From Collinsella aerofaciens (GTDB taxonomy: Bacteria; Actinomycetota; Coriobacteriia; Coriobacteriales; Coriobacteriaceae): a DNA stretch of 64,000 bases. This document shows positions 7,607 to 48,448 of this stretch, piece by piece. The notes beneath the pieces are model-generated. The model had not been told where the DNA came from and did not search any database. It saw only the letters and a program-made list of their open reading frames with translations. Each line of letters starts with the position of its first letter. Positions within the stretch are counted from its first letter, which is position 1. The position numbers and the translations under genes were made by a program. The stretch spans positions 1 through 64,000 of the forward strand of contig NZ_JADPCH010000013.1 of NCBI RefSeq assembly GCF_015670745.1, written 5' to 3'.

Positions 7607-7637
7607 TGTGACAAAAGGGTTGTTCCTTTGTCACATT
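7605..7637. repeat. P1 palindrome, copy 1
   Basis: Arms AATGTGACAAAAGG and CCTTTGTCACATT around a six-base loop. The left arm overlaps the exporter stop codon (TAA at 7604-7606). Related copies are at 9457, 32730, 36456 and 37713. It could act as a terminator or mRNA-end stabiliser, although the T-tract is weak. Confidence 0.85.
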
Positions 7638-7652
7638 GAGGCACTTGCGAAA

Positions 7653-7836
7653 TCGGGGTCTAATACTTTTCCGAGAAGTGAACGAGTCAAAATGGACCCC
7701 CGAAGCATCGGCACTTTCGAGATGCAATTTCCTGCGGTTTTGCCAACCAAATCCTGCGGTTTTGGCGCCAGAAAATGTCGATGCTTCAGGGGTCCAAAAA
7801 CGGTCGTTCACTTCTTGGAAAAGTATTAGACCTCGA
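7653..7836. repeat. Long inverted repeat LIR-A
   Basis: A 184-bp imperfect inverted repeat. Outer arms GGTCTAATACTTTT and AAAAGTATTAGACC are exact complements. The stem continues through GAAGTGAACGA, TGGACCCC and GAAGCATCG. The loop contains two direct copies of CCTGCGGTTTT. It has no coding capacity of its own. A second copy with different outer arms and an inverted loop is at 9190-9371. Confidence 0.88.
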
Positions 7837-7878
7837 GATATAGACGATGTTCGCGAGCGGCAATTAGATCGAAAGCCT

Positions 7879-9012
7879 TTAGTTCTTCTTTGCAGAGAGC
7901 ATGAGCCTAATTTCCGGATGGGTGTATTCGTCGAATTCTTCTGCGGCCTCGGTGTCAAAGGTGTAGTACGACTTGATAGATTCGTCCTCCGTCTTGATGC
8001 TGATTTCTTCATATAGGGAGCCAGCTAAAAATGTCTGTTTAAATTCATCCGACAGGCTGCATGGCGTGAGGAGGCCCGGTGTGGCAACGGAAATGTCCAA
8101 CCCGTTGAGCGGGGCGCAGAGCGTCGCGATATCCTGCTCGGCGCGGGCGAGGTTGTCTGCGAGGCTTGCCTCGGGGTCGATCTGACTGACGTAATCGACG
8201 TCCGTGAGCATGCCGTCTGCATCGAAAGAAAGGTAGACATAGGCTGCTTGAGCGCCGAGGTCATTATCGCGCAGATAGCCGATAATGCGGTAGCCGTAGT
8301 CGTGATACGACTCGTATGGGTCGTCTGCCGCGACGCGTTCGCACGCGGGCTCCAAGGCATCTTGCGCGATGGCGAGCTGCTCGGCGGCTGCAGCCTTTCT
8401 TGCCTGAAGCTCGTTATTTCCCTGGACAAACTGCGGGATGTAGACGCCAAGCAGCACAATGGCGGGCACTGCGATGAGCGCGATAATCTGTTTCTTGGCG
8501 CTCGGAATCACAACGCCGTATGCGGCCGCCATGGCCTCGGCATTGCTCGAGGTTTCGGCCAGCACGTCTGCCGCCGTGGCGACTGCCCCTACGGCGCTGG
8601 CAACCTCAGCGGCACCGCCCAGGTTGCGTACGAGATCGTTGTCGCTGTTCTTGAGCAGGCGGCCGGCAGCTTGCGTGGCAAGCACGCCGGCGACCTCCGC
8701 GGAATGGTCCTTGTTGGTCTGGGCCACCGCAAGCCTGCTCTGCAGTTCCTTCCACTGTTTGCCCTGCATTCCAAAGCGCGGCGCAAGAGCGCAATAGCAA
8801 AAGATGGCGAGTTCGATTACGGTGAGTGCGATAGCGGTATATATGCCCGCGGGTTGGAATTCCTTTTGGTGGAACGCGATATCGTTGATCATTTGGAGCG
8901 GCAACATCAATAGGCATGCTACGAACGACATGACGAGTGCGGTCGCTGCGATTTTGGGGTATGTGCAGTACCGCTGGATGCGTTTCTGTTCTTGTTCGGT
9001 AAGCTGCTGCAT
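7879..9012 (-). CDS. Unknown membrane protein between inverted repeats
   Basis: I do not recognise this family. From ATG 9012 (GAGG five bases upstream) it is 377 residues. Two hydrophobic segments come early (about 20-45 and 55-78), followed by an Ala-rich cytoplasmic-looking stretch (about 85-175). A third helix, QIIALIAVPAIVLLGVYI, precedes a C-terminal soluble domain of about 170 residues with many acidic residues. In-frame ATGs upstream (9030, 9054) have no ribosome site. The gene stands alone, framed by LIR-A and LIR-B and, outside those, by two P1 palindromes, an arrangement that suggests a mobilised or swapped locus. Base composition is not obviously foreign. Confidence 0.7.
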   Translation of the reverse strand: MQQLTEQEQKRIQRYCTYPKIAATALVMSFVACLLMLPLQMINDIAFHQKEFQPAGIYTAIALTVIELAIFCYCALAPRFGMQGKQWKELQSRLAVAQTNKDHSAEVAGVLATQAAGRLLKNSDNDLVRNLGGAAEVASAVGAVATAADVLAETSSNAEAMAAAYGVVIPSAKKQIIALIAVPAIVLLGVYIPQFVQGNNELQARKAAAAEQLAIAQDALEPACERVAADDPYESYHDYGYRIIGYLRDNDLGAQAAYVYLSFDADGMLTDVDYVSQIDPEASLADNLARAEQDIATLCAPLNGLDISVATPGLLTPCSLSDEFKQTFLAGSLYEEISIKTEDESIKSYYTFDTEAAEEFDEYTHPEIRLMLSAKKN

Positions 9013-9189
9013 GGGGGCCTCGACTCTCATCGTTTTTTGGGGCGATGCGCACACGCTCTTGAGTATAGATGAGTGGAGGATGTCTGTTGTTCATACATAG
9101 CGGTCAACAGCGTGCTGTTGGTGATCGTTTGATCGCGAACGTCGTCTTTTGGAGCATGAAGCCGCTGTCGATGCCCACAAACAGCAAAT

Positions 9190-9371
9190 CGAAGGTGAAT
9201 GGTTTCCCGAGAAGTGAACGACCTAATTTGGACCCCTGAAGCACCCACATTTTTCGACGCTAAAACCGCAGGATTTGAGTGATAAAACCGCAGGAATTGG
9301 CCTTCCAAAAGTGTCGATGCATCGAGGGTCCGATTTCACTCGTTCACTTCGCGGAAAACCATTCACCTTCG
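9190..9371. repeat. Long inverted repeat LIR-B
   Basis: A 182-bp inverted repeat related to LIR-A. The inner stem is shared (CCGAGAAGTGAACGA, TTGGACCCC, TCGATGC). The outer arms are CGAAGGTGAATGGTTT and AAACCATTCACCTTCG, unrelated in sequence to LIR-A's arms but complementary to each other. The loop repeats read AAAACCGCAGG twice, the opposite orientation to LIR-A. Confidence 0.88.
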
Positions 9372-9456: not shown

Positions 9457-9486
9457 ATGTAACAAGGGGGCGGTTCCTTTGTCACA
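9457..9486. repeat. P1 palindrome, copy 2 (degenerate)
   Basis: Left arm ATGTAACAAGG is decayed; right arm CCTTTGTCACAT is intact. It lies outside LIR-B, mirroring copy 1 outside LIR-A, and upstream of dus, so unlike the other copies it does not sit at a gene end. Confidence 0.7.
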
Positions 9487-9510: not shown

Positions 9511-10464
9511 ATGATTCTTTCGCTTGCCCCTATGGAGGGGATTACCGGGCATGTGTTCCGTCGCGTGCATGCGGAGTGCTTCGGCGCACTCGATTGCTAT
9601 TACACGCCGTTTTTGCCGCCGCCGCGGGTGGGCAACCGCTTTGGCGGCAAGGCGTTTAAGGAGATCGATCCTGCCAATAACCAGGGGCTTAACGTAGTGC
9701 CTCAGCTGATGTCCAAGAACGCGGACGAGTTTGTGTGGGCGGCACAGGTGCTCGCCGACATGGGCTATCGCGAGGTCAATCTCAACTTGGGTTGCCCCTC
9801 GGGGACGGTTGTCGCCAAGGGCAAGGGCTCGGGTTTCTTGCGTAATCTCGACGAACTTGAGGTGTTCTTGAGCGACGTGTGCGAACGCTCGCCGTTGCCG
9901 GTATCGGTCAAGACCAGGCTGGGGCTGGAGAGTGACGACGAATACGAGCGCGTGCTCGATCTGTATTGCCGCATACCGTTGGCAGAGCTGATCGTGCACC
10001 CGCGCGTACAAAAGGACCGCTATACGGGCACGCCGCGCAAGGAGTTTTATGGCGAGACGCTGGAGCGCGCGCCGTTTCCGGTCGCCTATAACGGTGACAT
10101 TTTTGATCTTGAGGATATGGACGCGCTGGTTGAGGCCTATCCCGGTACACGCCATGTGATGCTGGGGCGTGGCTTGCTTGCGAACCCCGCGTTGGCTCGC
10201 ATGGTCAAGGGCGGCCCTGCTGCAACGGCTGCTGAGCTGCAGCGCTTCCACGACACGCTGTTTGCGGCATATGCAGAAGAGATTGGCGGTAATGCGGTCT
10301 TTCGCATGAAGGAGTGGTGGTTCTACGCCAAATGCGCCTTCGCCGACCCCGCTACCGTCCACAAGCTCGTGCGCAAGACTAAAAAGGTCGACGAATACCG
10401 CGCCGCCGTCGATCGCGTCTTTCGCGAGCAGCCACTTGCGCCCATAGCCCGCTTCCACAGTTAG
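9511..10464 (+). CDS. dus: tRNA-dihydrouridine synthase
   Basis: A 317-residue FMN enzyme that reduces specific uridines in the tRNA D-loop. The family is clear from LAPMEGITGHVFRR at the N-terminus, the FMN-barrel motif NLNLGCPSG with the likely catalytic Cys95, the basic stretch VVAKGKGSG, SVKTRLGL, IVHPRVQKDRY and VAYNGDIF, and the C-terminal helical tRNA-binding region (KEWWFYAKCAF). Length is normal for the Dus superfamily. Whether it is DusA, B or C type cannot be settled by eye. ATG 9511 has only a weak purine-rich leader (AGAGAAGAG). The stop lies three bases before a P2 hairpin. Confidence 0.93.
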   Translation: MILSLAPMEGITGHVFRRVHAECFGALDCYYTPFLPPPRVGNRFGGKAFKEIDPANNQGLNVVPQLMSKNADEFVWAAQVLADMGYREVNLNLGCPSGTVVAKGKGSGFLRNLDELEVFLSDVCERSPLPVSVKTRLGLESDDEYERVLDLYCRIPLAELIVHPRVQKDRYTGTPRKEFYGETLERAPFPVAYNGDIFDLEDMDALVEAYPGTRHVMLGRGLLANPALARMVKGGPAATAAELQRFHDTLFAAYAEEIGGNAVFRMKEWWFYAKCAFADPATVHKLVRKTKKVDEYRAAVDRVFREQPLAPIARFHS

Positions 10465-30732: not shown

Positions 30733-32736
30733 ATGTCGAAGCAGGCAGTCGTTGGAATCTTGGCGCATGTCGATGCCGGCAAGACCACGTTGGCCGAGGC
30801 CATGTTGTTCAACGCGGGTCGCATTCGCAAGCGCGGCCGCGTGGACGATGGCGATTCGCATCTGGACACTAACGCGATCGAGCGCGAGCGCGGCATTACG
30901 ATCTTCTCGTCGCAGGCCGTGCTCGACCACGGCGATACCCACGTCATGCTTGTGGATGCGCCCGGCCACGTCGATTTTTCGGCCGAGGCGGAGCGCACGC
31001 TGCGCGCGCTCGACTATGCGATTTTGGTTGTGGGTGCCAACGACGGCGTGCAGGGGCACACCGAAACCCTGTGGCGCCTGCTTGCGCGCTATGACATTCC
31101 GACGTTCATCTTTATCAACAAAATCGATTTGGAGAATCCCGGCCGCGATGTTTTGCTGGCACAGCTTGGGCAACGTCTTTCCGAGGGCTGCCTGGATGCC
31201 AGCGAACTGTTGGTGGGTGGTGCCGTTCAGGAGGACGCTGCTGCGTTGGACGAGGCGGCGCTCGAGGAGTTTCTCGACGCAGGGGAGCTTTCGACTGCCA
31301 CGCTTTCGCGGCTGGTCGCAGAGCGAAAGTTGTTTCCCTGCTTTGCGGGCTCGGCGCTCAAGGACCAGGGTGTGGCAGAGCTACTCGACGGCATATGCGC
31401 TTTGATGCGCGAGCGAATATGGCCCCAGGAGTTCGCCGCGCGAGTCTACCGCGTGAGTCGTGGAGACCGTGGCGAGCGTCTTGCCTGGGTCAAGGTGACG
31501 GGCGGTGTACTGCGTGCAAAGCAAGTTGTCGAGGGATGCTCTGGCGCCTCCACTTGGGAGCAAAAGATCGACCAGGTGCGCATCTATAACGGCGAGAAGT
31601 ATGAGCTTGCCCAAGAAGTTGCTGCTGGCGGTATTTGTGCCGTGACGGGCCTTGCGCACGTTCGCCCAGGGGATGCCTTGGGCGCGGAGCCCGTGGGCGA
31701 TGCGCCTGTCATCGCTCCGGTCCTCACCTATACGGTGCTTCCGGGCGAACACGATGTCCACGCGGTGTTCAAAGCACTGACAGAGTTGGCGGACGAAGAT
31801 CTCATGCTCGGCGTAAGCTGGAACACTCATCTTGAGCAGATTCATTTGCAGCTGATGGGCGCCGTGCAACTCGAGGTCGTGCAGCGGGTGTTGGCCGATC
31901 GCTTTGGCCTTTCGGTTGCGTTTGAGTCTGGCGGCATTCTCTATAAGGAGACTATTTCGCAGCCGGTCGAGGGCGTGGGCCACTTTGAGCCGCTGCGCCA
32001 CTATGCCGAGGTACATCTGCGCCTGGAGCCGTTGCCAGCGGGTTCGGGCGTGCAGTTTGGCACCGTGACCTCGACCGACGAACTCGATCTTAACTGGCAG
32101 CGTTTGGCACTCACCAACGCCATGGAGCGCGATCACCTGGGCGCGCTGACCGGCTCGCCCATCACCGATGTGTGCATTACGCTCACGGGCGGCCGTGCGC
32201 ATGCCAAACACACCGAGGGCGGCGATTTTCGCCAGGCCACGTACCGCGCGATTCGCCAGGGGCTCATGCAGGCGCGTGAGGCTGGCGCGGCGGTACTGTT
32301 GGAGCCGTGGTATCGCTTTGAGCTCGAGGTGCCGGGGGAGTGCGTGGGCCGGGCGCTCTCGGATGCCACGCGTATGGGTGCCGAGTACGAGCCGCCGACG
32401 ATAACAGGCGACCGGGCGAAGCTTGCGGGTCGCGTGCCGGCATCCGAAGTGCAGGATTATGCGCTGGAGGTGGCTGCCTACACGAGCGGTCGCGGTCATC
32501 TGTACCTGGAGTTCGCCGGCTATGCGGCTTGCCATGATGCCGAGCGCGTCATCGAGACGGCCGCCTATGAGCCAGAAGCCGATCTGCCCAACACGCCCGA
32601 CTCGGTCTTTTGCTCTCACAGCGCCGGTTACACGGTCAAATGGTACGACGTACCCGCCGCGGCGCACGTAAAGATCGATCCCGCCACCTTCCGCCCCTGG
32701 CGAGCAGCAGACGCCGAGTTTTTCGGCCACATGTGA
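30733..32736 (+). CDS. TetM-like translational GTPase
   Basis: A 667-residue EF-G-like GTPase of the TetM/TetO/TetS ribosomal-protection group. G motifs are AHVDAGKTTLAEA, the switch stretch DTNAIERERGITIFSS, DAPGHVDFSAEAERTL and INKIDL. Domain IV-like parts follow (QLEVVQRVLADRFGLSV; GGRAHAKHTEGGDFRQATYRAI). The C-terminus reads NTPDSVFCSHSAGYTVKW, a form I associate with chromosomal TetM-like GTPases, not with acquired tet(M). It may release drugs from ribosomes or act as a housekeeping factor; resistance should not be assumed. The stop TGA is inside a P1 palindrome, which supplies the last two codons. Confidence 0.88.
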   Translation: MSKQAVVGILAHVDAGKTTLAEAMLFNAGRIRKRGRVDDGDSHLDTNAIERERGITIFSSQAVLDHGDTHVMLVDAPGHVDFSAEAERTLRALDYAILVVGANDGVQGHTETLWRLLARYDIPTFIFINKIDLENPGRDVLLAQLGQRLSEGCLDASELLVGGAVQEDAAALDEAALEEFLDAGELSTATLSRLVAERKLFPCFAGSALKDQGVAELLDGICALMRERIWPQEFAARVYRVSRGDRGERLAWVKVTGGVLRAKQVVEGCSGASTWEQKIDQVRIYNGEKYELAQEVAAGGICAVTGLAHVRPGDALGAEPVGDAPVIAPVLTYTVLPGEHDVHAVFKALTELADEDLMLGVSWNTHLEQIHLQLMGAVQLEVVQRVLADRFGLSVAFESGGILYKETISQPVEGVGHFEPLRHYAEVHLRLEPLPAGSGVQFGTVTSTDELDLNWQRLALTNAMERDHLGALTGSPITDVCITLTGGRAHAKHTEGGDFRQATYRAIRQGLMQAREAGAAVLLEPWYRFELEVPGECVGRALSDATRMGAEYEPPTITGDRAKLAGRVPASEVQDYALEVAAYTSGRGHLYLEFAGYAACHDAERVIETAAYEPEADLPNTPDSVFCSHSAGYTVKWYDVPAAAHVKIDPATFRPWRAADAEFFGHM

Positions 32737-32762
32737 CAAAGGGACAGTTCCTTTGTCACATG
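32730..32762. repeat. P1 palindrome, copy 3
   Basis: CATGTGACAAAGG and CCTTTGTCACATG around a seven-base loop. The ATGTGA of the left arm supplies the GTPase's final Met codon and stop. Confidence 0.9.
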
Positions 32763-36455: not shown

Positions 36456-36490
36456 CAATGTGACAAAGGGGCTGCCTCTTTGTCACATTG
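36456..36490. repeat. P1 palindrome, copy 4
   Basis: CAATGTGACAAAG and CTTTGTCACATTG with nine bases between. It begins two bases after the uvrA-like stop and separates it from the convergent second AAA gene. Confidence 0.9.
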
Positions 36491-37712: not shown

Positions 37713-37745
37713 AATGTGGCAAAAGGATAGTCCCTTTGTCACATT
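37713..37745. repeat. P1 palindrome, copy 5
   Basis: AATGTGGCAAAAGG and CCCTTTGTCACATT arms around five bases. On the minus strand its ATGTGA supplies the last Met and the stop codon of trmL. Confidence 0.88.
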
Positions 37746-48291: not shown

Positions 48292-48317
48292 GGGGCGCTG
48301 TGCATAGACAGCGCCCC
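48292..48317 (-). terminator. Riboswitch terminator
   Basis: GGGGCGCTGT and ACAGCGCCCC stem on the minus strand with a six-base loop, followed by TTTT. It lies between the TPP aptamer and thiM and is presumably formed when TPP is bound. Confidence 0.85.
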
Positions 48318-48333
48318 TGTAAAGGCGGCATGC

Positions 48334-48420
48334 TCCCTACGCCAGCATTAACTGACAGGTTCAAAGGATTGGGCCCCATGCCCTCTCAGCCTTGTGGTTT
48401 GCACCGCCGGCACTCCCGCA
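48334..48420 (-). promoter_or_regulatory. TPP riboswitch aptamer
   Basis: On the minus strand the Thi-box pieces appear in order: GGGAGTGC, then GGCTGAGAG, then CCTTTGAACCTG, then GCTGGCGTAGGGA. The order matches the TPP aptamer (P1, P2/P3, pyrimidine-binding GCUGAGA, P4/P5). It precedes the terminator at 48292 and the thiM-thiE operon. Confidence 0.93.
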
Positions 48421-48448
48421 TCGAATCTGTTGTTCCCTATACTAGCGC

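Follow-up and report, generated by a model that had tools for sequence, protein, structure and literature searches.

REPINs, hairpin-forming doublets of REP sequences, are associated with RAYT transposases (Bertels and Rainey 2011, PMC3116915). Their hairpins are of fixed length, and compensatory changes have been reported in them (PMC3116915). Template switching between the arms of inverted repeats has been described as a source of both arm matching and loop inversion (PMC8794818, PMC8604942). A list of palindromic RNA candidates has also been published (PMC8040213), in the main text of which Collinsella appears only for a ribosomal leader; our search of the literature for palindromes or MITEs of Collinsella found no papers. 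Here we describe two long inverted repeats, LIR-A and LIR-B, which belong to an unreported family of palindromic intergenic repeats in one Collinsella group. A first-pass annotation had held that no described element behaves as these two do, a statement that is too strong in view of the template-switch matching and the compensated REPIN hairpins cited above.

The window, a 64,000-nucleotide stretch of a Collinsella aerofaciens contig (NZ_JADPCH010000013.1, positions 1 to 64,000), contains both of the long inverted repeats that had been annotated (Table 1), and both carry the reported common inner stem (GGACCC) and paired loop words (CCTGCGGTTTT). The claim that the outer ends each pair exactly holds only roughly: the 33-nt arms of LIR-A (7653-7685 and 7804-7836) are 94% complementary with 2 mismatches, and the 68-nt arms of LIR-B are 79% complementary and include a TTTTCCGC / TCGGGAAA mismatch zone. 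When folded as DNA, LIR-A and LIR-B gave z scores of -10.9 and -8.8, respectively, and none of 200 dinucleotide shuffles folded as well. LIR-A is located between convergent genes (an ABC/FtsX gene and a hypothetical gene at 7879-9054), and LIR-B between divergent genes (the hypothetical gene and dus, 9511-10464). Copies are present at the LIR-A site in nine other genomes and at the LIR-B site likewise in nine. The loop had also been described as inverted between the two; LIR-B does lie in the opposite orientation, and this amounts to two sites with opposite orientations.

Table 1. Coordinates of LIR-A, LIR-B, and their parts in the window
Feature	Position	Strand	Remark
LIR-A, complete palindromic element	7653..7836	+	type-1 outer arms, loop in + orientation
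LIR-A left outer arm, type-1 allele GGGTCTAATACTTTTCC	7656..7672	+	
LIR-A right outer arm, type-1 allele (AGGTCTAATACTTTTCC on - strand)	7817..7833	-	
LIR-A 140-bp core, GAAGTGAACGA ... TCGTTCACTTC	7675..7814	+	
LIR-A loop, two direct TCCTGCGGTTTTG words 22 bp apart	7729..7764	+	
LIR-B, complete palindromic element	9190..9371	-	type-2 outer arms, loop in - orientation
LIR-B arm, type-2 allele with one change (AAGGTGAATGGTTTCCC)	9192..9208	+	
LIR-B arm, type-2 allele (AAGGTGAATGGTTTTCC on - strand)	9353..9369	-	
LIR-B 140-bp core	9211..9350	-	
LIR-B loop, two direct CCTGCGGTTTT words	9261..9296	-	

The hypothetical gene that separates LIR-A from LIR-B (391 codons) has no Pfam match. It is missing in several relatives, and a version about 70% identical and without LIRs is present in G003 and G020. 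A second palindromic repeat, of 29 bp (TGTGACAAAGG...CCTTTGTCACA), occurs five times in the window (7607-7635, 9458-9486, 32732-32760, 36459-36487, and 37715-37743) and not at all in shuffles; six genomes that lack the whole block of LIR-A, gene, and LIR-B retain one copy of it there. The window also carries a TPP riboswitch (48317-48427, minus strand).

A complete LIR element is about 184 bp long, with an outer stem of about 22 bp enclosing a core. Five copies, LIR-A and LIR-B among them, are found in the genome of the window, and 71 complete copies are spread over 23 of 45 Collinsella genomes. The species that carry them belong to the Collinsella aerofaciens complex, and the named records with copies are labeled Collinsella aerofaciens or Collinsella sp. 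When 397 genomes of the order were scanned, the core pattern was recovered inside the genus and once outside it, in G246, where the spacer is different; no copies of the family were found elsewhere in the order. Among the non-Collinsella records listed in a genome-wide scan, single matches were scattered across unrelated bacteria, and we take these as chance. Carriage by phages was also considered; 3 viral contigs had a match to the 16-base pattern. One genome, G034, appears to hold the element in two halves 2.6 kb apart (L228, C8:5886-5973 and 8552-8624).

Clustering of the flanks resolved the copies into about ten orthologous sites, namely, A and B in the window, AB2, and C1 to C7. The sites are intergenic, in mixed gene contexts both convergent and divergent. 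Core identity tracks the site (0.84-0.98 within sites versus mostly 0.67-0.81 between them), and values as high as 0.87 were reached between sites in the related pairs A/AB2 and C1/C1b/C5. The orientation of the element at each site is constant across species, with the exceptions of C7 of G035 and AB2 of G032, and an invertible DNA switch was rejected on these grounds.

The outer arms proved to be bimodal, with 133 of 142 arms falling within one mismatch of AGGTCTAATACTTTTCC or AAGGTGAATRSTTTTCC. The annotation had called the outermost bases unrelated between copies. They are instead two common alleles that recur in many copies at other sites and that, in an ungapped alignment of CGAGGTCTAATACTTTTCC with CGAAGGTGAATGGTTTTCC, are identical at 13 of 19 positions and different at 6. 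Arm types are equal on both sides in 64 of the 71 copies; the 7 mixed copies are C6 in five species, C3 in G036, and C2 in G022. With each site-haplotype counted once, left and right arm types were associated (counts of 8, 6, 2, and 1; Fisher p = 0.015). At four of the roughly ten sites (C2, C3, C5, and C7), arm type varies between species, changing on both sides at C2, C5, and C7 and occurring with mixed partners and intermediates at C3. The coordinated change of the outer stem that the annotation had perceived is thus real. Its worry that other copies might share one fixed outer arm was half justified, in that the copies have two fixed arms in common.

Matching of the arms is not uniform. 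At the B site, the arms are perfectly matched in G013 and imperfectly matched in its relatives, and C4 and C6 retain mismatched arms across five or six species, which indicates that arm matching is slow or not required. Between sites, core identity was 0.760 for copies of the same arm type versus 0.745 for copies of different types (p = 0.30). Since arm type does not predict core similarity, the arms appear to move independently of the cores.

Of the 71 copies, 68 have a core (GAAGTGAACG...CGTTCACTTC) of exactly 140 bp. Its inner stem is followed by an A-rich symmetric internal loop and a second stem, and the loop contains two words. These words, of the form TCCTGCGGTTTTG, are near-invariant and 22 bp apart, and GAAGTGAACGA is near-invariant too. 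When the loop word was sought as a separate site genome-wide, only a few isolated near-matches were found in the element's own genome. Indels per substitution numbered 0.026 in the core versus 0.14-0.22 in the flanks (pairwise counts, in which the pairs are not independent). Indirect evidence therefore indicates that the 140-bp core length is constrained, and such a constraint makes a DNA-level role of the element, e.g., in protein binding or past transposition, likely. The palindrome could in particular be a protein-binding site in DNA, its loop words and inner stem being recognized and the arm alleles being two accepted variants under selection. The near-invariance and spacing of the conserved words, the scarcity of core indels, and the presence of two conserved arm alleles in place of free drift are consistent with this idea, but the element varies in presence between species, is lost recurrently, and is entirely absent from about half of the genus, so that we regard a binding site of this kind as quite unlikely.

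Covariation was pronounced in the outer stem, where 123 cells were doubly changed versus 132 broken, and slight in the inner stem (16 versus 211; the cells are not independent in either count). Outer-stem covariation exceeded that of shuffles and slid controls. The double changes fall in blocks (alignment columns 7, 9, 10, 11 and 15, 16), and there are few G-T intermediates. Together with the constrained core length, such covariation might be expected if selection kept a transcribed RNA hairpin paired via compensatory substitutions, and a hairpin maintained by selection was the first of two options offered by the annotation. Selection for RNA pairing should act on both stems, however, and the inner stem is little compensated, which argues against it. 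On the loop-oriented strand, distinct G-T and A-C cases were equally frequent in the core (49 versus 49) and in the outer arms (18 versus 18), a parity that favors a process acting on DNA and leaves room for a DNA hairpin role. The persistence of mixed-arm copies across species and the mixture of convergent and divergent gene contexts likewise speak against an RNA. No terminator-like or promoter-like sites were found within LIR-A or LIR-B, and neither contains an intrinsic terminator, defined as a G+C-rich stem followed by a T run. Rfam gave no family above threshold for either element, the only hit being mir-232, far below threshold, and a known RNA family was accordingly rejected. We therefore consider selection on a transcribed hairpin very unlikely; exchange of DNA and fold-back copying explain the matching arm versions better than a conserved RNA does. 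Covariation in a hairpin is by itself no proof of selection at the RNA level, as the outer stem covaries here with G·T and A·C equally common.

Empty and partly empty sites bear on how the elements came and went. At C5, most of 25 genomes have an identical empty junction. In filled copies, a 7-bp CGAGGGG repeat bounds the segment, away from the element ends (by about 30 bp, on one side); this comparison of empty and filled C5 sites revealed no target-site duplication at the element ends, and insertion with target duplication is not supported. Solo arms are present at C1 and C3, and a partial solo arm at B. Junctions occur at short shared words of 3 to 7 bp, namely, CCA (B), GTGG/GAA (C1), TTCCCG (C3), and CGAGGGG (C5), with a second, different junction at C3 in G006, and the solo-arm junctions also lack variable flanking DNA. 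Because palindrome deletions have junctions at repeats of this length, the solo arms and empty sites are most readily interpreted as putative palindrome deletions between short repeats. Core-less solo arms at C1, C3, and B could alternatively mean that the element enters a pre-existing palindrome, or copies one flank to the other side, so that its arms derive from the target. The same arms recur at unrelated sites, however, as would not be expected of target DNA, the clean C5 empty site contains no arm, and the solo-arm junctions are deletion-like, all of which leaves target-derived arms scarcely credible. The annotation had named a palindrome, for example a terminator, that predated insertion as evidence against its own reading; empty sites have neither at the insertion point, and insertion into a terminator or pre-existing palindrome was rejected from the clean C5 empty site and the arm alleles common to sites.

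The C5 site of G030 (L358 / L151) holds half an element, with a single outer arm and some of the stem. The Dus protein of G030 is only 68% identical, yet the C5 flank is 92% identical in DNA, a discrepancy which suggests that the region was transferred.

Some arm switches involve more than the arms. At C2, the right flank has been replaced as well (63% identity) and the core has diverged (81%), and at C5 the G006 copy combines type-2 arms with a core closest to the C3 copies; these two switches may for that reason represent whole-element replacement by recombination between lineages. At C7, where G022 and G033 have type-1 copies, G035 has at the identical position a copy with type-2 arms whose core is in the reverse orientation. 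This copy, C5 of G006, and the intergenic location of the elements would also fit two MITE-like mobile subfamilies that have different termini and insert independently, sometimes at the same preferred sites, with switching being replacement. Against such subfamilies, arm type is unlinked to core subfamily, and nearly all copies occupy orthologous sites and are not recent insertions. The filled C5 site has no end duplication, only the off-end 7-bp repeat; no transposase with the same ends was found in arm searches of the 45 genomes; and the sampled Y1 transposase neighborhoods are without the element. Independent insertion by two subfamilies thus seems unlikely, if worth some weight.

On balance, we lean toward an old non-autonomous palindromic repeat whose arms have been exchanged and matched by template switching and whose copies have been lost by deletion. 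LIR-A and LIR-B are old non-autonomous repeats of about 184 bp, MITE-like or REPIN-like, that occupy about ten intergenic sites, only in the Collinsella aerofaciens complex, and draw their outer arms from two alleles common to the sites. Recombination or gene conversion, acting via the conserved inner stem, would swap arms from one copy to another and so give rise to mixed-arm copies, whose arms would then come to match either through a second exchange or through fold-back switching of template at the fork during replication (quasipalindrome correction). Copies would be lost by deletion between 3-7-bp repeats, as the junctions suggest, leaving solo arms or empty sites. Fold-back copying was the second option of the annotation and fits better than its first, except that the flank would not be captured at each insertion, as the arms are drawn from two alleles. 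We think it highly improbable that the family is a dispersed system of DNA hairpins in which the arm alleles give two specificities, each recognized, for example, by its own variant of a protein from the host or a mobile element, and in which dedicated fold-back copying actively restores matching; if true, that would make it a self-correcting modular palindrome. With about ten orthologous palindromes in some 23 Collinsella species, in which both types of arm occur alongside frozen intermediates of mixed type, solo arms, and empty sites, the family offers a natural record for telling apart template-switch matching, exchange between dispersed copies, and palindrome deletion.

The LIR family resembles REPINs in being a short intergenic inverted doublet of constrained length with a long predicted single-stranded DNA hairpin, in showing the compensatory changes reported for them, and in having singlets interpreted as remnants; inverted doublets, fixed length, and a hairpin with compensatory changes are all present. 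Unlike REPINs, the family combines a conserved inner stem with outer arms that alternate between two alleles; its sites number about ten and not hundreds, its core is 140 bp, and the sampled copies have no RAYT gene next to them. The GTAG (or CGTC) REP tag is missing from the conserved arm or stem consensus, and 20 sampled Y1_Tnp (RAYT) gene neighborhoods contain no LIR copy; for these two reasons the family is not a REPIN, and mobilization of a REPIN by local Y1 transposases was rejected on the second. What seems to be a genuine REPIN-RAYT pair does occur in Collinsella: in G022 C33 (L385:2222-2403), an inverted doublet of the GTAG type (GGGTAGCTAATTTGGGACGGGGC...) adjoins a Y1 transposase gene.

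ERIC and other bacterial MITEs (PMC10969869) are similarly non-coding, intergenic, palindromic, 100-200 bp long, and limited to a clade. The LIR elements have terminal inverted repeats, are non-coding and intergenic, and are shorter than about 500 bp, as MITEs are. They differ from ERIC and MITEs in having two alternative termini and few copies, and no sequence relation was shown. No target-site duplication was seen, the repeats at C5 being off the element ends and the junctions at other sites being of the deletion type. Arm searches of the 45 genomes gave LIR copies and solo arms among the loci retrieved, in a form of search that a diverged parent insertion sequence would escape. The family looks like a MITE without target duplication where this can be tested.

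Quasipalindrome correction by template switching (PMC8794818, PMC8604942, PMC7202029) has in common with the LIR elements the matching of arms over multiple nucleotides, block changes without G-T steps, and a possible spacer inversion (C7 in G035). It is a mutational process and not an element family, and its substrate in the present case would be a dispersed repeat that draws on two arm alleles. We class the LIR elements as a new family among the palindromic intergenic repeats of bacteria, unusual in having two interchangeable arms to draw on.
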